Assembly: GCF_009720365.1 (NCBI RefSeq)
Contig: NZ_ML769316.1
Location: 248,001 to 312,000 of the forward strand
Length of the DNA: 64,000 nt
Direction of reading: 5' to 3'
From: Catellatospora paridis
GTDB taxonomy: Bacteria > Actinomycetota > Actinomycetes > Mycobacteriales > Micromonosporaceae
Shown here: in pieces, positions 13,401 to 28,908 of the stretch
How positions within the stretch are numbered: the first letter of the stretch is position 1
Layout of the letters: each line of letters begins with the position of its first letter
Made by a program: the position numbers and the translations under genes
Notes under the pieces: model-generated
The model's input: only the letters and a program-made list of their open reading frames with translations
The model's database searches: none
What the model was told of the DNA's origin: nothing

Positions 13401-13504
13401 ATGACGTCGGCGACCCGGTCCGGCACCCAGAACACCGCCACCGAGCCGGCCAACCACACCAGCGTGTAGACCACCAGCGGCACGGTCAACACCCGCCTCG
13501 CCAT
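10478..13504 (-). CDS. membrane PAS-GGDEF-EAL c-di-GMP protein
   Basis: About 1008 residues. Nine or so membrane helices form an N-terminal sensor (about residues 1-320). A helical linker follows, then a PAS domain (YFRALVQNAADVILIVEP), GGDEF and EAL domains. The GGDEF site is intact (RLGGDEFAVL) and is preceded by an RPQD inhibitory site at the usual five-residue spacing, so cyclase activity with product inhibition is expected. The EAL site is also intact: FEALVRWNHP, LMLEITESLLL, IDDFGTGYS, VLKLDRVFI and VVAEGIEQP. The protein may therefore both make and degrade c-di-GMP at the membrane. The start is uncertain: ATG 13504 precedes the first helix directly, while an in-frame extension to 13606 exists without a better ribosome site. 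It stands alone, with no operon partner. Confidence 0.85.
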   Translation of the reverse strand: MARRVLTVPLVVYTLVWLAGSVAVFWVPDRVADVIWTLIGLISVVAIVVGVRRNRPARTWPWLLIAAGVFLSIAGEAIYDLLTYAGEVGGPYPSVADVFYLGMYPPLVAGMLGLSRSVARTRVPLLPADAMVILGGLGLLSWVFLISPHLFDPGLSLLQRVLIVAYPVGDLLVLAIVARLVIVHGFSPAVVLLCVGAVGLLVADTAYGTEQLHGHGQAGWPARVAWLLCYGGWAAAALHPSMADLTRPARVVSAEVCIGRQVSLLAACLLPQALLVFEAARGRVPHASAIAFAAGLTALLFAIRLFGLLADHRRHTDRTEIVRAASVRLASAREVPAVRAALQDGVERLAAGHTPHTVQVIINDGGHHDMFTPRHQHDVPIVASGALPADVDPLIGSAMPALLCSLRLDEGGLGDADLGMLILRSSGRQLEVLQAPMQTLASAAAQALERLTLTAEITRRDSEQYFRALVQNAADVILIVEPASWRVRYASPSAARLFGHGMPLGRPLLDLVAPESRDTVRDQLSSATVDTPQPSDWVMAGDGARLQVEAVCQDLSEEPAVAGIVVTLRDVTEQRRLQRRLTYLAYHDSLTGLANRVAFRSRLQEATEQARSSGLLAGVLFVDLDDFKIVNDTLGHETGDRLLRDVAKRLSATLRPQDTPARLGGDEFAVLVESAPDISSIETAAQDLVAALDRPFTLDSRPLSGRASIGVSCTADAANATELLRQADLALYAAKADGKGRWCRYDASLGAHAVERMQLRSELERAATDGQLFLEYQPIVRLADAVTVGFEALVRWNHPTRGRLGPAEFIDIAEESDTILTIGTWVLREAVDTAATWHTNTQTAPYVSVNVSVRQFHAEGFADVVQQALADAALPADRLMLEITESLLLADDKQVWHDLGELRRTGVRMAIDDFGTGYSALNYLRHMPLDVLKLDRVFISTITTSSQQADFVAGIIKLAETMDLEVVAEGIEQPRERDLLRAAGCRYGQGYLYSKPLTVEDARVWQSR

Positions 13505-13794
13505 CTGCCCAGCCGACCCGCAATCGGATAGGCACCGGCCGCTACCTCGGCAAACACTCAGATGATCATAACTTGTACCTGTCGCCTCGCGGACCACTTC
13601 CGTCACGGTCGCGCACGACCCCCGCGACCACGGCGAGCACCCCCATCACCGCGCTGCGGAACACCTGAGTCGTCCAGGTGTCGCTCCAAACTGCATAGGT
13701 TTCGGCTAAAAGGTCCGATGTCTCCCGTTTCCTGTTAGCGTGCGATCCGGGCCTCGTGACGCGAGTGTCTTGTAGGCGCGGCCACGGGGGCAGC

Positions 13795-14022
13795 ATGACC
13801 GACTTGCGCTATCGGATGATCATGGCTTTGAATGCCATCGACCTGGGCAACCCGCTGTGCGAGCAGGTGGCGTCCGTCTGCGCCGAGATCTCCGAGCAGT
13901 ACTGCGCCGAGCTGCACATCGCCTCCGAGGTCGAGCAGATCATGCTTTCCCACGATCCGCTCGCAGGCTCCGGCCGCACCCCGGGCGACGGCCCCGGCAC
14001 CACGGTCCGGATGCCGGCATGA
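13795..14022 (+). CDS. small helical protein coupled to pirin gene
   Basis: A 75-residue protein of unknown family. It is mostly helical (ALNAIDLGNPLCEQVASVCA, EQYCAELHIASEVEQIMLSH) with a flexible GP-rich tail and two or three Cys. ATG 13795 has GGGGGC seven bases upstream; the in-frame ATG at 13756 lacks this. Its stop overlaps the pirin start (ATGA), so the two are co-translated and may function together. Confidence 0.6.
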   Translation: MTDLRYRMIMALNAIDLGNPLCEQVASVCAEISEQYCAELHIASEVEQIMLSHDPLAGSGRTPGDGPGTTVRMPA

Positions 14023-14798
14023 GCGCGGCACGGGCCAGTTTGACGCCGTCGGTGGACGTGCGCCGGGCCGGGGACCGGTTCTGGACCAGGCTCGGCTGGC
14101 TGGACTCGAAGCACTCGTTCTCGTTCTCGCGCCACTACGATCCCCAGAACACCCACCACGGGCTCCTGCTGGTCAACAACGACGACGTCGTGCACGCCGG
14201 GACCGGCTTCGAGACACACCCCCACGAGGACATGGAGATCGTCACCTGGGTGCTCGCCGGGTCGCTGGTCCACCAGGACTCCACCGGCCACTCGGGGATC
14301 ATCTATCCGGGCCTGGCGCAGCGGATGAGTGCCGGCACCGGGATCCTGCACTCGGAGAAGAACGACTCATGGCGGCTGGATCACACCACGCCACACCGCG
14401 AGCCCGTGCACTTCGTCCAGATGTGGGTGGTGCCCGACGAGGACGGCGTCACCCCTGGTTACGAGCAGCAGGAGATCCCGGACGAACAACTGCGCGCCAA
14501 CCTGGTGGCGGTGGCGTCGGGCATGGACAAGCACGCCGACAGCGCCGCGATCCGCATCCGCAACCGCCATGCCGCGCTGTACGCGGCACGTCTCGCTCCC
14601 GGCGAGAGCGTCCCGTGCCCGCAGGCCCCGTTCGTGCACCTGTTCGTCGCGCGAGGAAAGATCAGCCTGGAAGGCAGCGGCGAGCTGTCCACCGGAGACG
14701 CCGTGCGGATGACCGCGACCGGCGGTCAGCAGATCACCGCCGTCGAGGACGCCGAAATCCTGATCTGGGAGATGCACGCCGCAGTGCGAATGGGCTGA
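14019..14798 (+). CDS. pirin family protein
   Basis: A 259-residue protein with the bicupin layout of pirins. The N-terminal metal site is visible: HHGLLLVNNDDVV, then THPHEDMEIVTWVLAGSLVH and HSGIIYPGLAQRMSAGTGI, supplying His, His, His and Glu. Conserved ILHSEKND and VHFVQMWVVP follow. The C-terminal cupin has no obvious metal ligands. Pirins bind iron; some are quercetinases, others redox sensors; the substrate here is unknown. Start chosen at ATG 14019, which overlaps the stop of the preceding small gene. Confidence 0.88.
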   Translation: MSAARASLTPSVDVRRAGDRFWTRLGWLDSKHSFSFSRHYDPQNTHHGLLLVNNDDVVHAGTGFETHPHEDMEIVTWVLAGSLVHQDSTGHSGIIYPGLAQRMSAGTGILHSEKNDSWRLDHTTPHREPVHFVQMWVVPDEDGVTPGYEQQEIPDEQLRANLVAVASGMDKHADSAAIRIRNRHAALYAARLAPGESVPCPQAPFVHLFVARGKISLEGSGELSTGDAVRMTATGGQQITAVEDAEILIWEMHAAVRMG

Positions 14799-14940
14799 AC
14801 CGCCCGCTCTTCCGACTGCCGTACTGCTGATCTCTTTGCTGCTCATGGTGCCGGCTCCCCCGGATGCTTGGTGCGCACCATGGGAGGTCGATTCCGGCAA
14901 GCAACCACGGGGATCCATGCCGGATCGCTAGCGTGATGGT

Positions 14941-16602
14941 GTGCGGACTGACGGGGCATCGGCCGGTCGGGTCTGGGACAGGCGGCGCACCGACAAGGCC
15001 AGGCGCCTGGCCGAGGCGGCCGGGCACGTCGACGGCAAGCTGATCCGGCCCGACGCGCTCGGCCAGGTGCTGGAGGCGGTGATCCGGCCCGGGGACCGGG
15101 TGGCGCTGGAGGGCGACAACCAGAAGCAGGCCGACTTCCTGTCCCGCACGCTGGCCTCATGCGATCCGCGCAAGCTGCACGATCTGCACATGCTCATCGG
15201 TTCGGTGTCGCGAAGCGAGCACCTGGACCTGTTCGAGCAGGGCATCGCCACCAAGCTGGACCTGGCGTACGCGGGGCCGCAGAGCGTTCGCATCGCCCAG
15301 CTCGTCGCCGACGGCACGGTGTCGATCGGCGCCATCCACACCTACGTCGAGCTGTACGCGCGCATGGTGGTCGACCTGCGGCCCGACGTCGCGCTGCTGT
15401 GCGCTTCGGCGGCAGACGAGCAGGGCAACCTTTACACCGGCCCGAACACCGAGGACACGCCGATCATCGCCGAGGCCGCGGCGTTCCATGACGGCGTGGT
15501 CGTCGTGCAGGCTGACGAGATCGTGAAGGTCGGAAGCCTGCCGCGGGTGGACATCCCCGGCGACTGGGTCGATCTGGTCGTGCAGGCCGACCGGCCGTTC
15601 TTCCTCGAGCCGCTGTTCACCCGCGATCCGAAGGCCATCGGCCCGGTGCAGATCCTGCAGGCGATGATCGCCCTGCGTGGCGTCTACGAGCGCCACCAGG
15701 TCGTGTCGCTCAACCACGGCGTCGGGTTCAGCACGGCCGCGATCGAACTGATCCTGCCCACCTACGGCGAGCAACTCGGGCTGCGTGGCAAGATCTGCCG
15801 GAACTGGACGCTCAACCCGCACCCCACGCTCATCCCGGCTATCGAGTCCGGCTGGGTGGAGACGATTCACAGTTTCGGCGGCGAGTCCGGCATGAACCGG
15901 TACGTGGCCGCGCGGCCGGACGTGTTCTTCACCGGCGCGGACGGGTCGCTGCGGTCCAACCGGGTGCTGTGCCAGCTCGCCGGCCAGTACGCGATCGACA
16001 TGTTCATCGGCTCGACGCTGCAGATGGACGCCGAGGCCAACTCGTCCACCGTGACCGAGGGCCGGCTGTCGGGCTTCGGCGGCGCGCCGAACATGGGCCA
16101 CGATCCGCACGGGCGGCGCCACTCCTCCCACGCCTGGCTGGATCTGAGTCACGGCGACGGCGCTGACCTGCGGGGCCGCAAACTGGTCGTGCAGATCGTG
16201 GAGACGTTCCAGTCCAGTGGCGTGCCCACGTTCGTGGAATCCCTCGACGCCATCGAGGTAGGACGCAGTGCGGGCATGCCCGTACCGCCAGTGATGATCT
16301 ACGGTGACGACGTCAGTCACGTCGTCACCGAGGAGGGCGTGGCATACCTGTACAAGACCGATTCGCTCGCCGACCGCAGGCAGGCGCTGGCCGCGATCGC
16401 CGGGGTCACTGCCCTGGGGCGCTCCGCGGATGCGGACGCGTTGGCGCGGATGCGCCGCGACGGGCTGGTGGCGCTGCCCGCTGATCTCAAGGTCGACCCG
16501 ACCCTGGCGACGCGGTCGCTGCTGGCCGCACACAGCATCGGTGACCTGGTGGCCTGGTCCGGTGGCCTGTACGAGCCCCCGGCCCGATTCCGGAACTGGT
16601 GA
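14941..16602 (+). CDS. mdcA: malonate decarboxylase alpha subunit
   Basis: MdcA is the acyl-carrier-protein transferase that exchanges acetyl for malonyl on the MdcC carrier in biotin-independent malonate decarboxylase. The 553-residue length and these stretches fit the family: GDNQKQADFLSRTLA, DLHMLIGSVSRSEHLDLFEQ, VSLNHGVGFSTAAIELILPT, SFGGESGMNRYVAARPD and SGFGGAPNMGHDPHGRRHSS. It begins with GTG 14941; no convincing Shine-Dalgarno precedes it, so translation may be leaderless. It is first in a six-gene operon with very short gaps, and mdcB begins five bases after its stop. Confidence 0.93.
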   Translation: MRTDGASAGRVWDRRRTDKARRLAEAAGHVDGKLIRPDALGQVLEAVIRPGDRVALEGDNQKQADFLSRTLASCDPRKLHDLHMLIGSVSRSEHLDLFEQGIATKLDLAYAGPQSVRIAQLVADGTVSIGAIHTYVELYARMVVDLRPDVALLCASAADEQGNLYTGPNTEDTPIIAEAAAFHDGVVVVQADEIVKVGSLPRVDIPGDWVDLVVQADRPFFLEPLFTRDPKAIGPVQILQAMIALRGVYERHQVVSLNHGVGFSTAAIELILPTYGEQLGLRGKICRNWTLNPHPTLIPAIESGWVETIHSFGGESGMNRYVAARPDVFFTGADGSLRSNRVLCQLAGQYAIDMFIGSTLQMDAEANSSTVTEGRLSGFGGAPNMGHDPHGRRHSSHAWLDLSHGDGADLRGRKLVVQIVETFQSSGVPTFVESLDAIEVGRSAGMPVPPVMIYGDDVSHVVTEEGVAYLYKTDSLADRRQALAAIAGVTALGRSADADALARMRRDGLVALPADLKVDPTLATRSLLAAHSIGDLVAWSGGLYEPPARFRNW

Positions 16603-16606
16603 CACC

Positions 16607-17470
16607 GTGCTCGCCGTCGGCAGCGCCCGCAGGACACCGGCCGAACTCGCCGAGCTGTTGGGCGCTCTGGCCGGGCAGGCGCTGCACGATGAGGCGACGC
16701 TGACGCCCAAACCCGGACTGGTCGACGCCCGCGGCGGCGGCGCACACCACGACATGGACCTGCCTACGCTGCTGGACTCCGCTGCGGCCCTGGTCGCACC
16801 GATCGCGGCGTGCGCCGCGGCCGCCACGTGCCTGCCGCTGGGCCGGGACCTACGCGCCGTGATCGGCGTGATCGGCCGTGACGGCGAGCAGCGGATGCTC
16901 GCCGCCACCGGTGGCGTCAACACCCACCGCGGCGCGCTGTGGGCACTGGGGCTGCTCGCCGCGGGGATCGCCGCGACGGGCACGGTCGCCGGCGCCCGTG
17001 GTTTCGCCGCACGCCTGGCTGCGGTCGCCGACCCGGCGGTCGAAGCTCGGGCGACATCGCACGGTTCACGGGTGCGCCGTGTCTTCGGTGCCACCGGGGC
17101 CAGGGGCGAGGCCCGCCGAGGCTTCCCGCACGCCGTCGATGTGGCGCTGCCGATGCTGCACGCCCGCCGCGCGGCACGACGTGATGAGCACACCGCCCGC
17201 ACCGATGCCCTGCTGGCGTCGATGAGCAGCCTTGAGGACACCTGCCTGCTGCACCGCGCCGGACGACGCGGCCTGCAGGCGGTACGTACCGGCGCGGCTG
17301 CGGTGCTGCGGGCGGGCGGCTCGGGCTCCGCCGGCGGCGGTGCGGCACTCGACCGGCTGGACCGGCTCTGCCGGCACCGGCGGCTGTCGCCCGGCGGCAG
17401 CGGCGACGCACTCGCGGCAGCGCTGTTCCTCGACGCGGCCGGCCGCCTGCTCACCGAACGGAGCAGCTGA
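16607..17470 (+). CDS. mdcB: triphosphoribosyl-dephospho-CoA synthase
   Basis: MdcB (CitG family) joins ATP and dephospho-CoA to make the precursor of the carrier protein's prosthetic group. Family motifs: EATLTPKPGLVDARGGGAHH near residue 25, then GGVNTHRGALWALGLLAAG, PHAVDVALPML, SLEDTCLLHRAGRRGLQAV and a C-terminal LSPGGSGDALAAALFLDAAG. The 287-residue length is normal. GTG 16607 is the start consistent with the conserved region and follows mdcA by four bases; the in-frame upstream extension only overlaps mdcA. Confidence 0.92.
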   Translation: MLAVGSARRTPAELAELLGALAGQALHDEATLTPKPGLVDARGGGAHHDMDLPTLLDSAAALVAPIAACAAAATCLPLGRDLRAVIGVIGRDGEQRMLAATGGVNTHRGALWALGLLAAGIAATGTVAGARGFAARLAAVADPAVEARATSHGSRVRRVFGATGARGEARRGFPHAVDVALPMLHARRAARRDEHTARTDALLASMSSLEDTCLLHRAGRRGLQAVRTGAAAVLRAGGSGSAGGGAALDRLDRLCRHRRLSPGGSGDALAAALFLDAAGRLLTERSS

Positions 17471-17471
17471 C

Positions 17472-17813
17472 ATGCGCACGCTTCAGTTCACCTTCCCGGC
17501 CGTGTCGCGGGCAGCCCACCGGGCTCATGTCGGCGTGGTCGGCTCCGGGGACCTGGAGATCCTGTTCGAACCCACCGGCGCCGCCGGGTCGGCCACGGTC
17601 AGGGTCCGCACCAGCGTCGAGGGATTCGACGAGGTCTGGCAGGCGACCCTGCAGCGGTTCTTCGCCCGTGTGCCGCTGGAGGGTTCCTGGGAGCTGAACG
17701 ACGCCGCCGCCACTCCGGCGCTGGTGACCCTGCGCCTGCAGCAGGCGGCCCAAGCTGCCGGCGGCGGCGCGAGCACGCCGTCGGCGCCCACGGGCACCCG
17801 GGAGGCGTCATGA
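17472..17813 (+). CDS. mdcC: malonate decarboxylase acyl carrier protein
   Basis: MdcC, the delta subunit, carries the 2'-(5''-phosphoribosyl)-3'-dephospho-CoA group on a serine. The attachment region VGVVGSGDLEILFEP with its Ser is visible near residue 25, followed by the family's VRVRTSVEGFDEVWQATLQR. At 113 residues it is slightly longer than usual because of a Ala/Gly/Ser-rich tail that runs into the next gene. It starts one base after mdcB ends and its stop overlaps the start of the beta/gamma gene (ATGA). Confidence 0.92.
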   Translation: MRTLQFTFPAVSRAAHRAHVGVVGSGDLEILFEPTGAAGSATVRVRTSVEGFDEVWQATLQRFFARVPLEGSWELNDAAATPALVTLRLQQAAQAAGGGASTPSAPTGTREAS

Positions 17814-19621
17814 CGGGCGACAGCGCCACGGTGCCCGCGACCGACACCGCCGCGCTGCTGCTCGGTGCCGGCGTCGACGGCGGCCCCGTCGACTGGACCC
17901 GGGTGCTGCGCCGCCGCAGCTTCCTCGAACTCGACGCGCTGGCCAGGGCCGAGGCGCTGCTCGACGGGCCCGGCAGCCGGGTGCTGTGCGGGCCGTTCGA
18001 TCGTCTGGAGTCGCCCTGGCTCGCACCGCAGGAGGTGACACCGCAGGCCGACGACGGCGTCGTCGTCGCCCGAGGGGTGATCAGCGGCACGGATGCGGTC
18101 GTACTGTCCATCGAGCAGGCTTTCCAGGGCGGCGGTGTCGGCGAGGTGTCCGGCGCGAAGATCAGCCAGGCGCTGCGACTGGCCGCCGCCGACAGCAGAG
18201 CCGGTCACCCTGTGGCCGCAGTACTACTGCTGGAAACCGGCGGAGTCCGGCTGCAGGAGGCGAACCTTGGGCTCAACGCCGTCGCCGAGATCTGCGCCGC
18301 GCTGCTGGAGTTGCGCCCGCTGGCACCGGTGATCGGTGTCGTCGCCGGGTCGGTCGGGTCATTCGGTGGCCTGAGCATCGCCACCGGCCTGTGCACCCAC
18401 GTCATCGTCACACCGGAGGCCCGGATCGGGCTCAACGGCCCAGCCGTCATCGAGCAGGAAGCCGGCGTCGCCGAGTTCGACTCCACCGACCCGGCCCTGA
18501 TCTGGGCCGTCGACGGCGGCGAGCAGCGCTACCGCACCGGGCTTGCCGACACGCTGGTCATCGACGACGCCGATGCCGTGCGTGATGCGGTCCGCGGCGC
18601 TGTGGCCGCGGGCGTGACCCCACCGGGCCGGCATCGCAGCGAGCGCCTCGACGTGCTCGACACCCGGCTGGCCACCATCGACCCAGCCGACCCTCCCGAG
18701 CCCCTGCGGCTGCGGACCCTGTGGGGCCAGGCGTACGAACCGCCGCCCGGCCCGGCCGTCACCTCGCGACGCGGCCGCGACGTGCAGCCCCACGCCGGTG
18801 CCACGCAATCGTCGATGGTGCCGGGCGAGCGCGGCCTCGCCTGGACCGTCGCGCTGGCCGGCGCGCCACCTCAGCCGGTGATCCCGTCGGTTTTGCGCGC
18901 CGACCGCGACGACACCGTCTTCCTGGCCGTGGTGCCCGATCCGGACAACCACTTCTACCGTGCGCGGCAGGGCCAGGTAGGCCTCACCGAATGCGCCGCG
19001 CTGGCCCGCACGCTGCGGGCGATCACCGCCGAGGACCGGCTGCGCGAGCAGCGCCGCCCGATCGTCGCGATCGTGGACCTGCCCAGCCAGGCATACGGGC
19101 GCATCGAGGAGATGGCCGGCCTGCACCAGGCGATCGCGGCGGCCGTCGACGCCGCCGACGCGGCCCGGGTCGCCGGGCACCCGCTGGTCACCCTCGTCGT
19201 CGGCAAGGCGTTGTCGGGCGGTTTCCTCGCGCACGGACTGCAGGCCGCGCAGATCCTGGCACTCGACGATCCGGGCGTGGAGATCCACGCCATGCACAAG
19301 GCCGCCGCCGCACGGATCACCCTGCGCACCGTCGAACAGCTCGACGAGCTCGCCAAGTCGATCCCGCCGCTGTCCTACGACGTGCGGCAATGGGCCACGC
19401 TCGGCTTCTGCGACGGCCTGCTCACCGTCGAGAACGCCGACAATCCCACCGACGCCGACGTGCGCACGGTCCTCGCCGCCATCGCCGACGCGGTGACCCG
19501 CGCCCGGCCCGGATCCGTCGACCTGTCCAACCGCCTGGACTCCGCGCAGGCGGTAAAGGTCCGGGCCGCCTCTCGCGCCGTGCGTGACGCGCTCGCGGCA
19601 CAGTGGCCGACCCCGCGATGA
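17810..19621 (+). CDS. mdcDE: malonate decarboxylase beta-gamma fusion
   Basis: One 603-residue protein in place of separate MdcD and MdcE. Residues 1-290 are MdcD-like (RSFLELDALARAEALLDGPG, EVSGAKISQALRLAAADS, GVRLQEANLGLNAVAEI, GSVGSFGGLSIATGLCTHVI), a carboxyltransferase half that decarboxylates the malonyl thioester. Residues 340-603 are MdcE-like (IPSVLRADRDDTVFLAVVPD, ALSGGFLAHGLQAAQILALD, HAMHKAAAARITLRTVEQL). The two join through a short linker near residue 310. In many bacteria they are separate subunits forming a heterodimer, so the fusion fixes their ratio. The frame is open throughout, so this is a true fusion and not a missed stop. Confidence 0.92.
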   Translation: MTGDSATVPATDTAALLLGAGVDGGPVDWTRVLRRRSFLELDALARAEALLDGPGSRVLCGPFDRLESPWLAPQEVTPQADDGVVVARGVISGTDAVVLSIEQAFQGGGVGEVSGAKISQALRLAAADSRAGHPVAAVLLLETGGVRLQEANLGLNAVAEICAALLELRPLAPVIGVVAGSVGSFGGLSIATGLCTHVIVTPEARIGLNGPAVIEQEAGVAEFDSTDPALIWAVDGGEQRYRTGLADTLVIDDADAVRDAVRGAVAAGVTPPGRHRSERLDVLDTRLATIDPADPPEPLRLRTLWGQAYEPPPGPAVTSRRGRDVQPHAGATQSSMVPGERGLAWTVALAGAPPQPVIPSVLRADRDDTVFLAVVPDPDNHFYRARQGQVGLTECAALARTLRAITAEDRLREQRRPIVAIVDLPSQAYGRIEEMAGLHQAIAAAVDAADAARVAGHPLVTLVVGKALSGGFLAHGLQAAQILALDDPGVEIHAMHKAAAARITLRTVEQLDELAKSIPPLSYDVRQWATLGFCDGLLTVENADNPTDADVRTVLAAIADAVTRARPGSVDLSNRLDSAQAVKVRAASRAVRDALAAQWPTPR

Positions 19622-20277
19622 CCGCCGTACGCCCGCACGACCTGGTCCGACTCGGCGCTCCCGAGGTCCTGCTGACCGGCGACGCACCCGGCTGGGTCGG
19701 CGACGCACTCGCCCGTGTGCCGTGGGTCGTGGTCCGCCGCGCCACAGCCACGGCGGGGCTCCTGGCTGTCGGGGTCCGCGGCACCGGCCGGCACCAGCGT
19801 CACGCCGCCGAGGCGCCGCCTGCCGCCGTCACCGGTGTCGCCGCGCCGGAGCGGTTGCGGTCCCCACCGCGCCACGGCCCGGCCTGCCGGACGCCGGCCC
19901 TGGTCGCGCTGCACGACCTCGGCCCGGCCCTCGACGCACGGAAGCTGGTCTGGGGCCCGGTCGGCAGCGCCGGCTTCGAGCTGGCCACCGGCCAGCCGGC
20001 CACCGGCACCGAAAGCGATCTCGACATCATCGTGCGGATGCATGAACTGCCCGATCCAGGCTGGGCCGCCGATCTGCTCACCGGACTCACCGACGCGGCG
20101 GCCCGGGTGGACTGCCTGCTGGAGACGCCCGCCGGTGCCGTGGCCCTGGCCGAGCTGGCCGGCGGGCCTGCCCTGCTGGTGCTGCGTACCGCCGACGGCC
20201 CCCGGCTCGTCACGCCCGAGCAGGTCCAAGCGATGTGCGCCCGGCGTACCGGCACTGTGGGCGACCACCTCCGATGA
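19618..20277 (+). CDS. mdcG: phosphoribosyl-dephospho-CoA transferase
   Basis: MdcG transfers the prosthetic group precursor made by MdcB onto MdcC, giving the holo carrier protein. The nucleotidyltransferase-like signature GTESDLDIIV with the two catalytic Asp residues lies near residue 130, preceded by WGPVGSAGFELATGQPAT. The C-terminus has the family's VDCLLETPAGAVALAELAG. Length 219 residues, normal for the family. Start at ATG 19618, overlapping the stop of the beta-gamma gene. Confidence 0.9.
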   Translation: MTAVRPHDLVRLGAPEVLLTGDAPGWVGDALARVPWVVVRRATATAGLLAVGVRGTGRHQRHAAEAPPAAVTGVAAPERLRSPPRHGPACRTPALVALHDLGPALDARKLVWGPVGSAGFELATGQPATGTESDLDIIVRMHELPDPGWAADLLTGLTDAAARVDCLLETPAGAVALAELAGGPALLVLRTADGPRLVTPEQVQAMCARRTGTVGDHLR

Positions 20278-21221
20278 GCACCGCGCTGCTGTTTCCCGGT
20301 CAAGGCTCGCAACGCCCCGGAATGCTGACGGACCTGCCGGACACCCCGGCCGGCAGGCAGACGTTGCAGCAGGCACGAGAAGTGCTGGCCACACTCGACG
20401 GTGTGCCGGAACCGGTCGATGACGCCGCGGCGCTGCAGGCGACCACCAACGCCCAGCTCGCACTACTGATCGCCGGGGTCGTCACGGCCCGCGCGCTGAT
20501 CGACGACCACGGGCTGCGCGTGGCAGCGGTGGCGGGGCATTCCGTGGGTGCGTTCGCGGCCGCGGTCACCGCCGGGGTCCTCGGCCTCGACGACGCGCTG
20601 CGCGCTGTCGCGGTCCGCGGCCGGGAGATGGAACGCGCCTGCGCGGGCGAGGACTGGGGCATGGCAGCGCTGACCGGACTGGGCGAGAGCGCCGCGCGCG
20701 CCCTCGTCGACGCGGTGGCGACCCGGGACGCGCCGCTGTGGCTGGCCAACCTCAATGCCGCCGACCAGGTCGTGGTCAGCGGCACGCGGCAGGCCTTGGA
20801 CCGGCTCGCGGTGCAGGCCCCGGCGGCCGGCGCGCGCGATCTGCGACTGTTGGCGGTGTCGGTGGCCTCGCACTGCCCGCTGCAAGCCACGACCGCACAG
20901 GCGGTCGCGCGAGCCCTGACCCGCGTCACCCCGGGCACGCAGCGATGCGTCTATTTCGCCGACACCACCGGCCGGCAGCTGGCCGCCGCGCCCGCACTGG
21001 TGCTCGACGACCTGGCCGCAGCGGTGGCGCAGCCGGTCCGCTGGTACGACATCATCCGTCTGATGCCCGAGGTCGGGGTGACCGCCACGGTCGAGGTGCC
21101 GCCGGGCCACGTGCTGTCCGCCATCAACGCCCGCCAGAACCCTGCGATGACCACCGTCGCCGTCGACGAGGTCGGCATCGCCGCGGCACTGCGCCGTATC
21201 GACCGCGCGAGCATGACGTAG
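20274..21221 (+). CDS. mdcH: malonyltransferase (epsilon subunit)
   Basis: MdcH is an FabD-like malonyl-CoA:ACP transacylase that loads malonyl onto the holo carrier to start catalysis. Motifs: LLFPGQGSQRPGML at the N-terminus, nucleophile elbow VAGHSVGAFAAAVTAGVL (Ser near residue 95), GREMERAC, ANLNAADQVVVSGT and VASHCPLQ with the catalytic His near residue 203. Length 315 residues. The start ATG overlaps the mdcG stop. It is the last gene of the operon and is followed by a strong hairpin. Unlike Klebsiella-type clusters, no mdcF transporter or mdcR regulator is adjacent. Confidence 0.92.
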   Translation: MSTALLFPGQGSQRPGMLTDLPDTPAGRQTLQQAREVLATLDGVPEPVDDAAALQATTNAQLALLIAGVVTARALIDDHGLRVAAVAGHSVGAFAAAVTAGVLGLDDALRAVAVRGREMERACAGEDWGMAALTGLGESAARALVDAVATRDAPLWLANLNAADQVVVSGTRQALDRLAVQAPAAGARDLRLLAVSVASHCPLQATTAQAVARALTRVTPGTQRCVYFADTTGRQLAAAPALVLDDLAAAVAQPVRWYDIIRLMPEVGVTATVEVPPGHVLSAINARQNPAMTTVAVDEVGIAAALRRIDRASMT

Positions 21222-21262
21222 ACGCGGCGGCGAACCGACCTGCACTGGCGGCTGCCGTTCAC

Positions 21263-21306
21263 GGCGTCCGGCGGCCCGAGTGCGGTGAGCCGGGCCGCCG
21301 GACGCC
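21263..21306. terminator. strong bidirectional hairpin after mdcH
   Basis: A perfect 16-bp GC-rich stem (21263-21278 pairs with 21291-21306) with a 12-base loop lies between the convergent ends of mdcH and the hydrolase gene. It should end both transcripts. Confidence 0.8.
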
Positions 21307-21314
21307 ACCGCTGT

Positions 21315-22214
21315 TCAGTTGCCGGCGCACACGGCCCGGGCCGCGGCGAGGATCTGGTCGGTGACCGCGTCAGGGTGGGAGATCAGCGTCAGGTGTGATC
21401 CGCCGGGAACCACTTTGACCTGCGAATTCGCGCGTTTTGCCATGGCCGTCTGCGACTCCGGTGTGATGATCTTGTCGTCGCCGCCGATGACGTACCACGA
21501 CGGGATCGTCATCCAGGCCGCCTGCGCGCTCGGGGTCGAGAATGCCGTCCTGGTCGCGGGACGCTGACTCGCCCAGAGCACCTCGACCAGCTGTTCGGGC
21601 AGGTCAGGGGCGAACGACTCCACGAAGACGTCCTCCAGCAGGTACAGGTCGGCGTCGCCCTCGGGCGCGTTCGGGTACGGGACCGCGTCGAACAGCGTGT
21701 CCGGATCGGCGTTCAGGACCGAAGTCTGCCCGCTGGTCTGCGCGCTGGTCTCGCCCACCGCAGGTGCGCTGGCGTCGACGTACACCAGCTGCTTGACGGC
21801 ATCGATGCCGGCGGCCGCGTTGCTGATCACCGATCCGCCATAGGAGTGCCCGACGAGCACGATCGGACCGGACAGAGTCTTGAGGAAGTCCGCGACCGAA
21901 GCGGCGTCACCGGTGAGTCCGCGCAACGGGTTGGCGACGGCCCGGGCCACGTACCCGGCATTCTGCAGTCTCTGCACCTCGCCGCTCCAGCTGGAGGCGT
22001 CGGCGAACGCGCCGTGGACCAGCACCACCGTCGGCTTGACGCAGTCAGCCCCGGCGGGCATCGGACCGCCGCCGTCCGAGCGTGACGGCCAGACGCGAAG
22101 GCCGGAAGCGGATGCCTGCGCCGGAGCGCCGCCCAGCCCGGTGACGGCCACCGCCACCGCAGTCAGCGCGGCAAGCCAACTGCTGCGGCTACCGCCGATC
22201 GAAACCATCTTCAT
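21315..22214 (-). CDS. secreted alpha/beta hydrolase
   Basis: A 299-residue protein with a signal peptide (WLAALTAVAVAVTGLGG then APAQASA) and an alpha/beta-hydrolase fold. It has VVLVHGAFADASSW (oxyanion strand), VLVGHSYGGSVIS with the Ser nucleophile, a late Asp in VIGGDDKIITPESQ and the catalytic His in VPGGSHLTLISHP. This type is often annotated as esterase or chloroperoxidase-like hydrolase; the substrate cannot be told. Start at ATG 22214 with GGGG eight bases upstream; the frame stays open far upstream but that part is not protein-like. Convergent with the mdc operon. Confidence 0.85.
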   Translation of the reverse strand: MKMVSIGGSRSSWLAALTAVAVAVTGLGGAPAQASASGLRVWPSRSDGGGPMPAGADCVKPTVVLVHGAFADASSWSGEVQRLQNAGYVARAVANPLRGLTGDAASVADFLKTLSGPIVLVGHSYGGSVISNAAAGIDAVKQLVYVDASAPAVGETSAQTSGQTSVLNADPDTLFDAVPYPNAPEGDADLYLLEDVFVESFAPDLPEQLVEVLWASQRPATRTAFSTPSAQAAWMTIPSWYVIGGDDKIITPESQTAMAKRANSQVKVVPGGSHLTLISHPDAVTDQILAAARAVCAGN

Positions 22215-22531
22215 CGGACCCCGTTTCGTAAGTGGCACAGCCCCGTCCGCAGCGGACCGCGACCAACCCGGACGGCTGCCATGACCGAATGGTGATTCCG
22301 AATGCAGACTAACCAGCAGCAATCGGCGCCGGATGGTTAATCGACTGCGACAGCGGAGCACCACGTCGCAGGTGCGCCGGCGGGCTGCCCCATCCGACTT
22401 CTCCGACATTTCCCCAGCTCCCCGGCATATGCTGTTTCGCGGTGGTTGCCTGCGTGTCGCCGCGGCCCTGGCCGGCGGGGTTGCCGCCAACCGCGCGACC
22501 CTGGCCCGGCCCGTCGGAAGGGGGTGCCGGG
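22215..22531. other. intergenic region, divergent promoters
   Basis: About 320 bp between divergent genes (secreted hydrolase leftward, P450 rightward). It must hold both promoters. No repeat or gene is seen. Confidence 0.5.
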
Positions 22532-24052
22532 ATGGCTGGTCGGTCAGCGGGCAGCGGTGCGGAGCCCGCAGCGCGGTCTCTAGCACAGCCGGACGCGCCC
22601 GCCACGAATGTGCCGTGTTCGGCGGCGCCTCCTGTGGGGCTCCTGCCGGCGGACTTCGAGGCCGACTACGTCGGCGGGGCTGTCGCACCGTTCCTGTTGA
22701 GCAGCGAGTTCGCCGGGGAGACGCCCATGCTCCCCATGATCGATCTCGCGTTGACCAAAGAGAACGCCCTGGCGAGCCATCTCTGGGGCCTGCTGTACGA
22801 CGGCTGGACGCCCGACTCCGACCGGGCGGGCGTCTCGGTCTTCACCCAGGGCTACGAGAAGCGCGGCCCGCACAACGCCCGCAAAAAGATCTTCATGTCG
22901 GCGACCACACCGGACCTGATCGACACCCGATACCGCGACAGACTCCGGCGCTTCCACGAGCTGCTGCTCGCCGGCGAGCAAGCCGGCGAGCCCCTGATGC
23001 GCCGCTTCCTCGACCTGTACTACGAGCTCTTCTGGGATCTGCACGTCGGCGCGACCGGCGAGCCGCTGCCCGCCGAGGTCCGCCGGTTCACCGCGGACTT
23101 CACCACGGTGCTGGGCTTCTGGTTCCCGACCTCGGAGACCGTGCACCGGGCGTACATGCGCGCACGCGCCGACCGGGCCGCACTCATGGCCTGGCTGGAC
23201 GCCCGCGTCCAGGCTCTCATCGACGGCACCGCGCCCGACCCCGAGAACACCATCGTTTACTACTGGCTGAAGAACGGCGAGCTGGGCGAGAACTTCAGCC
23301 GCGACGACCTCCTGATCGAGTGCCTGCACGATCTGATGGCATTCCCCCAGTGGGCGACGATGGTGCACCACGTGGCGAGCAGACTGGAGCCGGCGCACGG
23401 AGACGCCGACGTGCGGTCCTGGTTCGACAGGACCATGCGGGCAGGGCCGGACGAGCCCGACGGCGGCCCGTTCACTCCCCTGGACCGGCTGGTGATGGAG
23501 CTGTTTCGGACGATATCCCCGAACCCGGGGAGCCTGTCGACGCTGCGGCGCAAGCAGGCGCTGCTCGGCGGGGGTTTCACCGGTGTCGTGACGCCGCATG
23601 TCGCGGCGAACACCGATCCCCGGAACTGGGCCAACCCGGCGGAGTTCGATCCCGACCGCTACCGGACGGCCCCGACGAGTGCGGACACCGACGACGCGAG
23701 GTGCCGGCAGGCCGGGCTGGCGCGCTGCCCGTTCCCGAGGGAGGCGTTCGCCGTCCGGGACGGCCGCGCGGTGCGGTTGGTCAACTCCGGGTACGGGGCG
23801 GTCTACAGCGAGGTCGACGGGACGCCGCATCCGGTGTGCGACACGGCGGGCTATGCGGCGTTCGGGTTCGGCTACCGGCGTTGTCCCGCCGAGCATCTGT
23901 CGGTCGAGTTCGTCAAGGAGTTCCTGCGCAAGGTCTGGCAGGACGGGATCTCGTTCGTGCGCCTCGACGTCGAGGCTCCCGAGCGGGTGCCCGTGAACCC
24001 GGGGACGGTCGCCGACGACATCAGCTTCCGCCTGCCAGCCGGGCCTAGCTGA
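22532..24052 (+). CDS. atypical cytochrome P450-like protein
   Basis: A 506-residue protein. P450 signatures are confined to the C-terminal half: K-helix ExxR in MELFRTISPNPGS (near residue 322), a meander-like FDPDRYRTAP, and the heme-thiolate loop FGFGYRRCPAEHL with its Cys near residue 450. About 75 residues, including CPFPREAFAVRDGRAVRLVN, separate FDPDRY from the Cys loop, far more than in normal bacterial P450s, and the I-helix acid/Thr pair is not evident. This resembles the divergent P450s that act on fatty hydroperoxides more than monooxygenases, but that is inference. ATG 22532 is preceded by GAAGGGGG; longer in-frame extensions lack a better site. It lies just upstream of the SEFIR-CHAT-STAND gene. 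Confidence 0.7.
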   Translation: MAGRSAGSGAEPAARSLAQPDAPATNVPCSAAPPVGLLPADFEADYVGGAVAPFLLSSEFAGETPMLPMIDLALTKENALASHLWGLLYDGWTPDSDRAGVSVFTQGYEKRGPHNARKKIFMSATTPDLIDTRYRDRLRRFHELLLAGEQAGEPLMRRFLDLYYELFWDLHVGATGEPLPAEVRRFTADFTTVLGFWFPTSETVHRAYMRARADRAALMAWLDARVQALIDGTAPDPENTIVYYWLKNGELGENFSRDDLLIECLHDLMAFPQWATMVHHVASRLEPAHGDADVRSWFDRTMRAGPDEPDGGPFTPLDRLVMELFRTISPNPGSLSTLRRKQALLGGGFTGVVTPHVAANTDPRNWANPAEFDPDRYRTAPTSADTDDARCRQAGLARCPFPREAFAVRDGRAVRLVNSGYGAVYSEVDGTPHPVCDTAGYAAFGFGYRRCPAEHLSVEFVKEFLRKVWQDGISFVRLDVEAPERVPVNPGTVADDISFRLPAGPS

Positions 24053-24259
24053 CCAGCCCGCGCCACGATCGGGGGCGGCAGCGGCCGGTGCGGCCGTGGT
24101 CGCCACACTGGCCGCGGCGGCACTGTCCCATGGCGGACCTGCGGCGTGCGGGCAGTTCGACCACCGGTGGAGACCGCTTCACCTTCGGCACATACATTTC
24201 CGGCATCACCAGTTCCGGGCGGGCCCGCACCCGCACGGAGGGATATCGGGAGTTTTGTC

Positions 24260-27200
24260 ATGAGTTCCACCAGCCTGGGCGGCGGCACCATCCCGCCAAT
24301 CGTCCACGAGTCCACTGTCGACAGGGTGCAGGCCGGTCACGTCGTCGTCTCGTACGCCCCTGACGACGAGGGGCATGTCGAAGCCGTCCGGGACCTGTGG
24401 ATCCTGCTGCGAGCGGCAGGCGTCGACGCGAGGCTGGCAACCACATCGGTCGGCTCGCCCGCCGAGGTGCGGCTTGCCGCCGCCGTCGTCGTGGTCGGCT
24501 CGCCGCTCTACCGGGAGGTCGCCGCCGCGGAGCCGGTCGGAGGACACACGCAGCTGTGGCAGGCGGCCCGGTCGATCGAGGACCTGGCCGGCGGTGACGA
24601 GAAGTCCGCCGCCGCCGTACTGCCGGTGGTGCTGCCCGGCGGCACGGTGGGCCACCTGCCGGCGTTCCTGTCCGCGCACACCGCTCCCCTGTTCCGGCTG
24701 CGCACGCTGAGCCGGCGCGGCGTCGCGACCCTGGTCGCCGCACTTCACGAGCGCTGCGGCTCGGCGGATCCGACACCGCGCCACGAGCTGCGCCTGGCCG
24801 TGAGCGTGGCGGACGGCAGGGTCCGCTGCGCCACGACGCTGTCCGGGACGCTGCTGTGCGAGCGGGACGAGTTGCTGCCGTTCGGCCGGGACGAGGTCTG
24901 GTCGCTACTGGACCTGCCCGACGCGCAGACGCGGCTGGCGCGGCTGGGTCAGCGGCTGTCCGAGGCGCTGTTCGACGCCGACTGCCTCGACCAGCTCACC
25001 ACCCTGGTCACGAAGTCCGCCGAGGGCACCGTCGTCGACGTCGTCATCGAGGCCGACGGTGCGGCGCACGAGCTTCCGTTCGAGCTGATCCAGCTCACCG
25101 ACCAGCAGGTCCTGGCCACCGTCGACGGCGTACGCCTGACCCGGACCGTCACCGGCGTGCCGGCCCGGGCCCTTGCCCCGTCGCCGGGTCCACTGAAGAT
25201 CCTCGTCGCGGTCGGGGCACCGGAGGTCACCGAGAACCCGGCGCTGGACGTGGAGGCCGAGATGCAGGCCATCGTCGGCGTCGTCGGTGGACTGGGCCGG
25301 GCCGAGGTGACGATCCTGGAGACGGCAGGCCCGCAGGAGATCGCCGAGGCGTTGCGTCGCGACGCGTACCACGTGTTGCACCTGTCGGCGCACGGATCTC
25401 CATACGGGGTGGAGCTGGAGGACCGGGACGGCAACGCGGTCGACGTGCAGGCCGAGGACCTGGTGCGGGCGCTGCGCCGCGGCGGCCGGGCGCTGCCGCT
25501 GATCGTGCTGTCCAGCTGCGGGGGCGCGTCGGATGCGGACGCGGGCCTGGCGGTGACCCTGCTCCGGCACGGCGCCGAGCGGGTCATCGCGATGCAGACC
25601 ACGGTCACCGACGTGTACGCGACCGGGCTGATCACCCGCGTCTACCGTTCGCTCGCCGAGCAGAACACCTCGGTCGCCGAGGCGCTGGCCGAGGCGAGGT
25701 CGGCGCTGTTCGACGACGCGCAGGGCAACCGGACGCTGCAGCGGCCCGAGTCTGCGGTGGCGGCGCTGTTCGCGGCCGGGGACGGCCCGCTGTGGGACAC
25801 CGCGGCGGCGCCTGACCCCTTGAGCAACCCGACGGAGCTGCCTGGCGGCGTGGACGTGCGCGACCTGTCGCTGGGCGAGCTGGTCGGCCGGCGCGCACTG
25901 CTGCGCACCGTGTCGCGGGTGCTGCGCGACGAGGTCCCGTCCGGCGGCAGGTCACCGCTGGTCAACGGCGTGATGCTGACCGGCGCGGCCGGGATCGGCA
26001 AGACCGCCCTGGCCGGCCGGGTGGTCAACCGGTTGCGGGACGACGTCGACGACCCGTGGGCGATCGTCGTGCAGGAGGGCCTGTGGAATCCGGAGCAGCT
26101 CATCGCCGACCTCGCCGCAGCCGGAACCGACGTCGACGGCCACGGCGACCAGGCCCACGCCCTGGCGGCGATCACGGCCGCGCTGCGTACGCGGCGGCTG
26201 CTGATCGTGTTCGACGACTTCGAGCAGAACCTCACCACGGGCGGCGCAGGCTTCGCCGACCCCGGGTTCGAGCAGGTCTTCACGGCGCTGTGCGAGGCTG
26301 CGGAGCGCGGCAAGATCCTGGTGGCGAGCCGCTACCCGGTGCCGGTCGAGGTGCCGCTGCTGCGGGCCGAGGTGCCGCCGCTGGGCGACGCCGAGCTGCG
26401 CCGGATGCTGCTGCGGCTGCCCGCGCTGCGCGAGCTGTCCCCCGACGACCGCGAGACGGTGCTGCAGGTCGCGGGTGGGCATCCGCGGCTGCTGGAGTTC
26501 GTCGACGCGCTGCTGCGCGGCAGCGCCCGGGCCCGGCTGCCCGAGGTCACCGAACGGCTGCGCAGGCTGGCCAGGCAGGAGCGGGTGCCACTCGCCCGCT
26601 CCGCCGGCGCCGCCGAGGCGACCCGGCAGGCGGTGGCTCTGGCGGCCCGCGACATGCTCCTCGACGACCTGCTGGGCCTGCTGTCCGAGGTGGAACGGGA
26701 GACGCTGCTGCAGGCCGCGGTGTGCCGGGTGGCGCTGTCGCCGGGCGACCTCGCGTTCGCGGTGCGGGGCCGGGAGGCGTCCGATGAGGAGCACGCCGAG
26801 ACAGCGGAAGACGTCTCCCGGCTGCGGGACCTCACCCTGGTCACCGGCAGCGAAGCTGTCGCCGTGGAGCCGTGGCTGCGGGAGGCCCTGACACCGTTGC
26901 AGGGCGTTCAGCGCCTCGACCGGCATGAGCGGGCCGCGGCCACATGCCGCCGCATCGCGGCCGAGGGCCGGGCCGACTTCACGACCCTCACCGAGGCCGT
27001 ACGCCATCTCGCGTCCGCCGGCCGGTTCGACGAGCTGGCGGAGTTCGCCGATGCGACGCTGCCCAGCCTGGGCGGGCAACTCACCGTCGCGGCGTTCCTC
27101 GGCGACGTCACCCCGGCCCTGCCCGACGGCCACGCCGCATACCCGGCGCTGCTCAGCCGAGAACGGGACGCGCTGGAAGCCACCGGCGCCACCACCGCGG

Positions 27201-28480
27201 CCGCGGCCAAGGGCGAGGAACTGGTCGCACGGGCAGCCCAGGCGGTCGAGGCCGCACCGCAGGACCCGGCGGCCCTGCTCGGGCTCAGCGCGGCGCTGGA
27301 CGGGCAGGCGCGGCTCCTGCACCGGCTCGGCGACACCTCTCAGGCGCGGACCTACTACGAGCAGGCCCTCGCCATAGATCTCGGGCTGTCCCAAGCCGAG
27401 CCGGACGACGTGCCGTACCAGCGCAACCTGGCCCTGAGCTTGGAGAAGGTCGCACGGCTGGCCCTGGACAGCGCCGACACCGGTGCGGCACTGGACGCGG
27501 CTCGCCAGGCCCTGCAGATCCGGCAGCGCCTGGCCGACGCCGAACCCGGCGAGCCGGCGCTGCAGCGCGACCTCAGCGCGTCCCTGGACACCACCGCCGC
27601 AGGCCGGCGCGCCGCGGGCGACACCGCCGGAGCCCGGGGCCTGGTCGAGCAGGCCATGCAGATCCGGCGGCAGTTGGTGGAGGCCGACGAGGGCAACGCG
27701 GTCCTGCTCGACGACCTGCTCGACAGCCTCGGCGACCTCGCCGACCTCCTCGGATTCTCCGGCCCGGACACCGAACTGGCCCGGCAGCTGACCACGGAGG
27801 CCGCGTCGGTCGCGGCCGCGCTCGTCGAGGCTGACCCGAGCAGCGTCGGATTCCGGCGCAAGCTGCTCGCCTCCCACTGGCGGCTGGGTGCCATGGACGT
27901 CGCCGCCGCGGACCTGTCCTGCGCGCATGAGCATTTCGTGAGCGCACTGGCGCTGGCCCAGCAACTGGCCGACACGGACACGGACAGCATCGACGCGCAG
28001 CGCGACCTGGGCACGGCGTGGCGGCGCATGGCCGACTACGCCCTCGCGAACGGCCGGCCGGAGGAAGTCCGCGGCCACCTCGAACGGGTCCTCGAGGTCG
28101 CGCAGGGCCTGGTCCACCGGCTGCCGCGGCACCGCCGGCTACACCATGACCTGGCCGAATCCTGCCTGCGCCTGGCCGACTGGATGCGCGACATGGGCGA
28201 CGCGGTGACAGCCCGCACACTGTTCCGGCAGGCCCTGGCCAGCCGCCGGCGCCAGGCCGTGCTCGACCCCGGCGGCACCGAGGCCCTGCTGGGCCAGGCC
28301 GAGGTGCACGGGCGCCTGGCGGAGCTGGCGCAGACGGTCGGGCATCCCGGCCGGGCACGAAAGCATTGGCAAGACGCGCTCACGCTCGCCGAACAGGCCC
28401 ACCTGGTGGCGCCGACGGATGCCGGGCAGGAGCAGGTGACGCTTTATCAGGAGCGGCTCGACGCGATGCCGGTGCGTTGA
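24260..28480 (+). CDS. SEFIR-CHAT-STAND-TPR protein
   Basis: A 1406-residue signalling or defence protein. Residues 20-180 look like a SEFIR/TIR-type domain (VVVSYAPDDEGHVEAVRDLW, LLRAAGVDARL, VLPVVLPGG). Residues 240-510 form a CHAT caspase-like protease domain with catalytic His in VLHLSAHGSPYG (near 377) and Cys in IVLSSCGGASDAD (near 419). Residues 560-800 are a STAND/NB-ARC ATPase with Walker A TGAAGIGKTALA and Walker B LLIVFDDFEQN. From about 990 to the end the protein is a TPR array (AAALLGLSAALDGQARLLHR, SQARTYYEQALAIDL and similar). The expected logic is sensing by TPR, NTP-driven oligomerisation, then protease activation. ATG 24260 has GGGAG ten bases upstream. It stands alone before a terminator; no clear protease target is adjacent. 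Confidence 0.85.
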   Translation: MSSTSLGGGTIPPIVHESTVDRVQAGHVVVSYAPDDEGHVEAVRDLWILLRAAGVDARLATTSVGSPAEVRLAAAVVVVGSPLYREVAAAEPVGGHTQLWQAARSIEDLAGGDEKSAAAVLPVVLPGGTVGHLPAFLSAHTAPLFRLRTLSRRGVATLVAALHERCGSADPTPRHELRLAVSVADGRVRCATTLSGTLLCERDELLPFGRDEVWSLLDLPDAQTRLARLGQRLSEALFDADCLDQLTTLVTKSAEGTVVDVVIEADGAAHELPFELIQLTDQQVLATVDGVRLTRTVTGVPARALAPSPGPLKILVAVGAPEVTENPALDVEAEMQAIVGVVGGLGRAEVTILETAGPQEIAEALRRDAYHVLHLSAHGSPYGVELEDRDGNAVDVQAEDLVRALRRGGRALPLIVLSSCGGASDADAGLAVTLLRHGAERVIAMQTTVTDVYATGLITRVYRSLAEQNTSVAEALAEARSALFDDAQGNRTLQRPESAVAALFAAGDGPLWDTAAAPDPLSNPTELPGGVDVRDLSLGELVGRRALLRTVSRVLRDEVPSGGRSPLVNGVMLTGAAGIGKTALAGRVVNRLRDDVDDPWAIVVQEGLWNPEQLIADLAAAGTDVDGHGDQAHALAAITAALRTRRLLIVFDDFEQNLTTGGAGFADPGFEQVFTALCEAAERGKILVASRYPVPVEVPLLRAEVPPLGDAELRRMLLRLPALRELSPDDRETVLQVAGGHPRLLEFVDALLRGSARARLPEVTERLRRLARQERVPLARSAGAAEATRQAVALAARDMLLDDLLGLLSEVERETLLQAAVCRVALSPGDLAFAVRGREASDEEHAETAEDVSRLRDLTLVTGSEAVAVEPWLREALTPLQGVQRLDRHERAAATCRRIAAEGRADFTTLTEAVRHLASAGRFDELAEFADATLPSLGGQLTVAAFLGDVTPALPDGHAAYPALLSRERDALEATGATTAAAAKGEELVARAAQAVEAAPQDPAALLGLSAALDGQARLLHRLGDTSQARTYYEQALAIDLGLSQAEPDDVPYQRNLALSLEKVARLALDSADTGAALDAARQALQIRQRLADAEPGEPALQRDLSASLDTTAAGRRAAGDTAGARGLVEQAMQIRRQLVEADEGNAVLLDDLLDSLGDLADLLGFSGPDTELARQLTTEAASVAAALVEADPSSVGFRRKLLASHWRLGAMDVAAADLSCAHEHFVSALALAQQLADTDTDSIDAQRDLGTAWRRMADYALANGRPEEVRGHLERVLEVAQGLVHRLPRHRRLHHDLAESCLRLADWMRDMGDAVTARTLFRQALASRRRQAVLDPGGTEALLGQAEVHGRLAELAQTVGHPGRARKHWQDALTLAEQAHLVAPTDAGQEQVTLYQERLDAMPVR

Positions 28481-28485
28481 TCGGA

Positions 28486-28525
28486 CGGGCTGCCCGCCGG
28501 AGGCGGACCGAACGCGGGCAGCCCG
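28486..28525 (+). terminator. hairpin after SEFIR-CHAT-STAND gene
   Basis: A perfect 12-bp stem (28486-28497 with 28514-28525, CGGGCTGCCCGC arm) begins five bases after the stop codon. Likely Rho-independent-type terminator. Confidence 0.7.
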
Positions 28526-28908
28526 CACCGAGTTCGGGCCATGCGCCCGTCGGCGCAGTCCGGTCCGTTAAGGCCGATCGGCTTTCACGACGAGGACGAC
28601 AGGAACCTCCTACGAGCTGACGGGCATGGCGTAGATCGGGAAGCAGCCCCGCCGTCGGGTACCGCGACGCTGCGGCTCCTGCCAGGCACCGCCACCAAGC
28701 GCTGACGTCGGTCACCGGGAACAGCCAGCGCGGGCCTGCTGCGGTCCGGGGTGGACGCCCAGCGGCCGGGTGAAGTCGGCGACGGTGACGGGACGTATCT
28801 GTGGGTCGACGGCAAGCGCGTCCACGCGGGTGACGCCGTCGGTGAACGGCCACCTACTGCCGAACCGGTTTCTGGCCGCGACCAAGAAGATCCACGGCAA
28901 TAGTTGAG
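28526..28908. other. gene-free stretch
   Basis: No supported gene. A minus-strand frame at 28712-28900 reads VDALAVDPQIRPVTVADFTR and may be a scrap of a larger protein, but it has no recognisable family and no ribosome-binding site. Confidence 0.35.

Follow-up and report, generated by a model that had tools for sequence, protein, structure and literature searches.

A gene at positions 24260-28480 (+) of the stretch of DNA of the soil actinomycete Catellatospora paridis analysed here (64,000 nucleotides, contig NZ_ML769316.1, positions 248,001 to 312,000; hereafter the window) encodes a protein of 1406 amino acids in which an N-terminal domain of SEFIR ancestry is followed by a CHAT protease, a STAND ATPase and a TPR array. 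Its layout, with repeat sensor, ATPase switch and protease, is like that of immune receptors in animals and plants. The N-terminal domain is a degenerate SEFIR that has diverged at about twice the rate of CHAT, and the protein is probably, by analogy, a single-gene, NLR-like proteolytic switch with a death or defence outcome. The features computed were the domains, the intact CHAT and ATPase residues, the fold, the ancestry and decay of the SEFIR domain, the patchy presence of the gene and the lack of a recurrent neighbour. A preliminary description of this DNA, made from the sequence, was confirmed in part in its observation and supported in part in its interpretation; the self-contained switch that it had put forward agrees with the NLR-like layout, the intact CHAT pair and P-loop, and the recurrent neighbour that was looked for and not found.

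Trigger binding, oligomerisation, proteolysis and the death or defence outcome are modelled on families with this layout, and on what CED-4, plant NLRs and proteases of the CHAT type do. The C-terminal TPR array would bind a trigger, upon which the CED-4-like STAND ATPase would exchange nucleotide and then oligomerise; the clustering would switch on the CHAT cysteine protease, which would cleave one or more cellular or phage proteins, leading to growth stop or cell death. The N-terminal SEFIR would be what decay has left of a second domain, for signalling or as an effector, that most relatives keep; it would be at most a structural cap and neither adaptor nor NADase. It is more likely that the TPRs are the sensor, that STAND drives oligomerisation and that CHAT works alone, CHAT being, as best read from sequence, the only intact effector of the protein. 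One bacterial chain here joins a caspase-like protease to an apoptosome-type ATPase and to a decayed relative of the interleukin-17 (IL-17) receptor signalling domain.

The protease and ATPase domains

The open reading frame (ORF) 24260-28480 is a genuine coding sequence. Its features are as follows.

24260-28480, + strand: coding sequence, 1406 amino acids, degenerate SEFIR, CHAT protease, STAND ATPase and TPR
24338-24751, + strand: degenerate SEFIR domain, residues 27-164; retains the fold but neither the DWxxWM tryptophans nor the conserved Glu
24776-25798, + strand: CHAT caspase/separase-like protease fold, residues 173-513 (Pfam stretch 228-489)
25391-25393, + strand: His378 (HLSAHG), predicted catalytic; H in 89 of 90 rows
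25517-25519, + strand: Cys420 (LSSCGG), predicted catalytic; C in 86 of 90 rows
25850-26836, + strand: STAND (NB-ARC/CED-4-like) ATPase, residues 531-859
25982-26005, + strand: Walker A GAAGIGKT, residues 575-582; Lys581 in 130 of 130 tree rows
26198-26224, + strand: Walker B LLIVFDDFE, residues 647-655; all 130 tree rows have its first Asp
27278-28279, + strand: TPR array, about residues 1007-1340, period of about 48 residues, repeats diverged

CHAT (PF12770) scored over the cut-off at residues 228-489 (E = 7.7e-26), and the catalytic His and Cys named in the preliminary description are both intact as His378 and Cys420. The pair is intact in all 31 rows of the clade that holds the window protein (the window clade) and in 125 of the 130 rows of the family tree; it is broken in P0041, P0065, P0067, P0076 and L062. 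The Walker A and B motifs were likewise found to be intact as claimed, with Lys581 and Asp652 in place; the second Asp of Walker B is replaced by Asn in 15 of the 130 tree rows. Pfam NB-ARC (21.5 versus 23.5 bits) and NACHT (17.5 versus 26.7 bits) both remained below their cut-offs on the window protein, so the STAND assignment follows from the Walker motifs and the fold. The predicted model of residues 1-859 (pLDDT 88.1, pTM 0.85) was compared with known structures: its protease part matches SAVED-CHAT, Csx29 and separase, and its ATPase part matches CED-4 and resistosomes, tied with archaeal ATPases. CHAT, STAND and TPRs in one chain of 1406 residues are confirmed by profiles, motifs and fold.

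The host genome has three other CHAT genes. A CHAT protein of this genome besides that of the window, encoded at L001 400-2556 (-), is fused with RCC1 repeats.

Ancestry and decay of the N-terminal domain

Structure comparison of the N-terminal model gave ACT1 and a prokaryotic SEFIR as the best matches, with TIRs close behind, and residues 27-164 scored 88 bits against a profile built from sister SEFIRs, partly from the same intact rows whose profile scores are quoted here. Pfam TIR did not match the window protein, nor did Pfam SEFIR (PF08357) at E <= 1. The SEFIR/TIR-like domain of the preliminary description therefore stands as to fold and homology, and fails as to Pfam profiles, DWxxWM tryptophans and glutamate.

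The homologue search scored the 8000 candidates with most words in common and found 89 relatives of the window protein. Of the 90 homologous proteins, 89 qualified for the tree, P0086 (SEFIR and CHAT with a short STAND) being left out; L032, a STAND without CHAT in its frame, was also kept out, and the other rows outside the tree were split over frames or lay at contig ends. In a FastTree of 130 CHAT-STAND rows, the window clade was placed among actinobacterial intact-SEFIR proteins, beside L011 (support 0.85; wider group 0.99), and in a quick IQ-TREE search on 128 rows the clade (30 rows) had an SH-aLRT of 100. By the sister profile, 63 tree rows lack an intact SEFIR, 23 of them outgroup rows with TIR or other N-terminal domains, so that only the ingroup of 105 rows informs the question of effector loss. 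SEFIR-CHAT-STAND-TPR is the usual order in the family (67 of the 105 rows); the preliminary description called SEFIR ahead of CHAT uncommon. The IQ-TREE search gives at least four changes of SEFIR state in the ingroup: the domain has decayed in the window clade, is missing from a Nocardia-type clade of 4 rows, is replaced by Trypsin_2 in P0074, P0079 and L045, and is absent without replacement from P0073.

In P0074, P0079 and L045 the Trypsin_2 domain occupies the SEFIR position ahead of CHAT, giving two proteases in one NLR-like chain. P0087, a remoter relative, carries a TIR ahead of CHAT. Most N-termini of L018-L025, a remoter Micromonosporaceae CHAT-STAND group, show GMSGAPV or similar, which we take to be a trypsin-like serine motif; alike repeats are present in some of them.

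Of the two tryptophans of DWxxWM, one is present in 48 and the other in 49 of the 50 intact rows examined; both are gapped or replaced in all 16 window-clade rows checked (P0001-P0016). The glutamate of GVxWEA, which from its position is possibly a TIR-type NADase residue, is present in 66 of 67 intact rows, whereas all 23 decayed rows are without it. In the 22 decayed rows of the window clade this column holds Ala (12), Val (3), Thr (1) or a gap (6), and the remaining row, from the outgroup, is gapped; the column is alignment-dependent, and one residue earlier the window clade has Gln, His, Arg or a gap, never Glu.

At matched CHAT divergence, the ratio of N-domain to CHAT divergence was 1.65-2.65 in the window clade versus 0.89-1.01 in intact relatives. 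For the closest pair, the window protein and its copy in genome G002, omega was 0.90 for the N-terminal domain (confidence interval 0.42-2.95), 0.12 for CHAT (0.04-0.29), 0.51 for STAND and 0.35 for the C-terminus, all based on few changes. The corresponding N-domain and CHAT values were 0.19 and 0.16 in the intact pair L046/L047 (Herbidospora), and 0.38 and 0.26 in the intact pair L044/L027. Relaxation of the N-terminal domain is clearest in Catellatospora, on the few changes there. Among the 13 Dactylosporangium proteins of the homologue search, the SEFIR profile detects nothing in eight and remnants of 19-40 bits in five; all 13 retain the CHAT pair.

Several results weigh against a single-effector switch with a decayed SEFIR. 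STAND is also ahead of CHAT in the window clade (STAND/CHAT divergence in the middle bin 1.52, versus 1.08 in intact relatives), and slow change of CHAT may therefore explain part of the N-domain ratio. In the pair L007/L008 (Micromonospora, judged by tree neighbours) omega of the N-terminal domain was 0.33 (0.21-0.53), near that of CHAT (0.28), so that the decayed domain is not free of constraint there. The N-terminal domain still folds with high confidence in the predicted model, the alignment of which contained intact SEFIRs and thus favours a SEFIR fold. The tree takes in only rows with CHAT and STAND, and retention of CHAT is partly built into it, although 89 of the 90 homologous proteins qualified and P0086 has CHAT as well. 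Finally, PADLOC gave no match in five window neighbours scanned, most window genes being outside the scan.

The preliminary description had proposed adaptor-driven assembly, in which SEFIR-SEFIR contacts would assemble the protein and activate CHAT. The SEFIR fold, the 88-bit homology and the constraint seen in L007/L008 would suit such a working adaptor, and one TIR_2 protein elsewhere in the host genome (G000:C6:101882) leaves room for a TIR partner. However, the clade is without the tryptophans and the glutamate, its N-terminal domain diverges about twice as much as CHAT, and the Dactylosporangium proteins have an intact CHAT pair with SEFIR undetected or a remnant. Pfam SEFIR found no SEFIR anywhere in the host genome, although that profile overlooks even the decayed domain of the window protein and would miss a decayed partner; four of four added relatives with an intact SEFIR were matched as control. 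As the SEFIR is degenerate, adaptor-driven assembly is unsupported for the window protein, and we consider it very unlikely. The corrected domain call matters here, since an uncorrected SEFIR label would imply SEFIR-driven assembly.

A motif-less pseudo-SEFIR might instead have been repurposed as a lid holding CHAT off until STAND opens, which would account for the persisting high-confidence fold and the constraint in L007/L008. Several Dactylosporangium members and the Nocardia-type members are entirely without the domain and nevertheless keep the CHAT pair, and the Catellatospora pair has, from few changes, an N-domain omega of about 0.9; a lid therefore seems doubtful to us.

Sensor repeats and loss of effectors

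The family TPR profile matches kinesin-light-chain TPRs. Repeats at least 70% alike over 100 amino acids were found in 39 of 45 intact members, 25 of which reach 85%, in none of 29 window-clade and none of 4 Nocardia-type members, and in 8 of 13 outgroup rows; the three rows that sit within the intact clade with trypsin in place of SEFIR or with no SEFIR, P0073 among them, all keep such repeats. These counts required a C-tail of at least 250 amino acids, which dropped 22 of 67 intact, 2 of 31 window-clade, 1 of 4 trypsin-replaced or SEFIR-less and 11 of 24 outgroup rows, and rows of one clade are not independent. In most intact-SEFIR sisters (P0031-P0082, L011-L017, L044-L048) the 48-residue TPR repeats are near-identical and recently amplified. 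Among 182 repeat units of 49 intact proteins, variation within arrays was highest at unit positions 7, 17, 18, 24, 39 and 43 (22 proteins with at least four units each); the picking pattern fixes positions 9-16 and limits the variation that can appear there. Some of the variable positions presumably fall where TPR grooves are lined. These data suggest that the receptor changes fast in the sister clade and has settled in the window clade. The 85% level is the repeat cut-off used for fungal NLRs (PMC4986451), and the intact-SEFIR sisters are possibly a bacterial counterpart of fungal allorecognition NLRs. Two events speak for a tie between SEFIR loss and diverged TPRs and one (P0073) against it, which is no proof of a tie.

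In all five rows whose CHAT pair is broken the SEFIR is intact and has its glutamate, and these may be SEFIR-only effectors; no ingroup row that lacks an intact SEFIR has a broken pair. That loss of one effector excludes loss of the other is suggestive only, as the five rows represent about three events (P0065, P0067 and P0076 are close in the tree) and too little overlap is expected to allow a test. As a tentative reading, to which we give a modest chance, the parent family would be a two-effector NLR, with a glutamate-bearing SEFIR as possible NADase or signalling enzyme, CHAT, STAND and re-amplified TPRs; either effector could be lost but not both, and the window protein would be a single-effector, fixed-sensor end state. 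If so, SEFIR loss and freezing of the sensor went together, with two lineages for this and P0073 against it. Living intermediates of SEFIR loss make it testable which of the two fused effectors works, and also whether a fast-changing repeat sensor goes with the two-effector state.

Distribution, surroundings and known systems

The window lies in an 8.97 Mb Catellatospora genome in 35 contigs. Relatives measure 1403-1410 amino acids in Catellatospora and 1360-1455 in Micromonospora, and P0002, from Catellatospora chokoriensis, is 96% identical to the window protein across the first 800 residues. Counting the window genome, the gene is present in 2 of 11 Catellatospora genomes, and of 150 genomes of the family 22 give some match at 1e-20, in many cases a remote one. 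The gene is thus accessory and patchy in presence.

The match to genome G002 spans window 10466-28574 in two pieces (92.6% and 94.6%) and ends 94 bases past the stop codon. A further piece of 129 bases (28724-28850) has its match about 2 kb farther along, and the downstream vWA genes are located elsewhere in G002. L114 begins at about the start of the match at window 10466, so that the block may reach further upstream. In the nine other Catellatospora genomes, the longest match to window 20000-28575 among those listed was 444 bases at 70%. When 35 window ORFs, chosen by a codon-GC rule that may miss genes, were compared with 145 loci by tblastn, just scattered unrelated matches were found beyond the gene and its same-genus copies. 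An all-versus-all comparison of flanking ORFs (at least 90 amino acids, 49 loci, six places fetched twice being counted once) gave no recurrent neighbour: clusters span at most five loci at varied distances, and many are confined to three close Nocardia loci. Nothing gasdermin-like was recognised beside the gene, no gasdermin profile having been run.

A non-defence role was also considered, that of a STAND regulator with MalT-like logic whose CHAT would process a cellular protein in development or stress. The diverged, constant TPR array would fit a fixed ligand, and the five neighbours scanned with PADLOC offer no defence match. We regard this role as unlikely, however, in view of the accessory distribution, of two sister proteins that match the PADLOC bSEFIR model, and of the Pfam scan of the window protein, which found no DNA-binding domain.

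Malonate decarboxylase genes occupy window 14941-21221 (alpha subunit PF16957, an MdcE/carboxyltransferase fusion and an acyltransferase), and lie, like the gene at 22442-24052, on one block with the CHAT gene in a second Catellatospora genome. Window 22442-24052 encodes a 536-residue protein without Pfam match, a C-terminal stretch of which resembles a P450 haem-binding motif; a 58% relative is present elsewhere in the host genome (L128). An operon with either as functional link was rejected, as the relatives' loci in other genera are without them. A transposase-like ORF was read from the sequence at window 4256-5257 (-). In three Nocardia loci (L052, L055, L065) a helix-turn-helix-regulator-like ORF stops 24 bases ahead of a SEFIR-less CHAT-STAND frame.

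In Csx29 of the type III-E CRISPR Craspase, TPRs stand ahead of CHAT and there is no STAND ATPase. SAVED-CHAT is switched via its SAVED sensor and a filament. The latter (PDB 8tl0) has a SAVED sensor rather than the STAND-TPR of the window protein, and Csx29 is, unlike the window protein, switched by the Cas7-11/gRAMP complex, Craspase cleaving Csx30. No PADLOC model matches the window protein. The N-terminal SEFIRs of sister proteins match the bSEFIR antiphage system (PDLC03957; P0030 3.8e-33, P0037 5.3e-28), whereas the window protein has no match to it at E <= 1. In PMC10952713 the phage-defence system Borvo is given a CHAT protease domain, in which by that description it resembles the window protein.

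The general kind, STAND with caspase or TIR effectors, is already known. Bacterial STAND proteins with such effectors, some with TPRs, are treated as conflict systems in PMC8195603 and PMC7159879, and the word SEFIR is absent from those texts. A paper of 2012 (PMC3501461) listed caspase homologues of Actinobacteria that carry NACHT, and a diversity-generating retroelement target with CHAT and TIR is reported from multicellular bacteria in PMC10907252. No paper on a SEFIR-CHAT-STAND family was recognised among the results listed in a literature search that excluded subscription papers; the SEFIR-CHAT fusion, its decay in the window protein and the link with sensor repeats, as read from sequence, were not met there.

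The nearest likeness is to the actinobacterial SEFIR-CHAT-STAND-TPR proteins (mostly P0030-P0082; Frankia, Actinomadura, Herbidospora and others), which agree in domain order, are 37-49% identical to the window protein over its first 800 residues and share its CHAT pair (five exceptions) and P-loop, but differ in their intact SEFIR (Pfam match in P0030) and mostly near-identical TPR repeats. From the CED-4 apoptosome and plant NLR resistosomes the window protein differs by its same-chain protease and its TPR sensor. Fungal NLRs with highly conserved internal repeats combine STAND with TPR, WD or ANK repeats and some with CHAT effectors (PMC4986451 and PMC12881547), and gasdermins are under the control of fungal NLR sensors that carry a CHAT or serine protease (PMC12881547); a repeat amplification like that of these NLRs is seen in the sister clade, whereas the window protein's own repeats have diverged.

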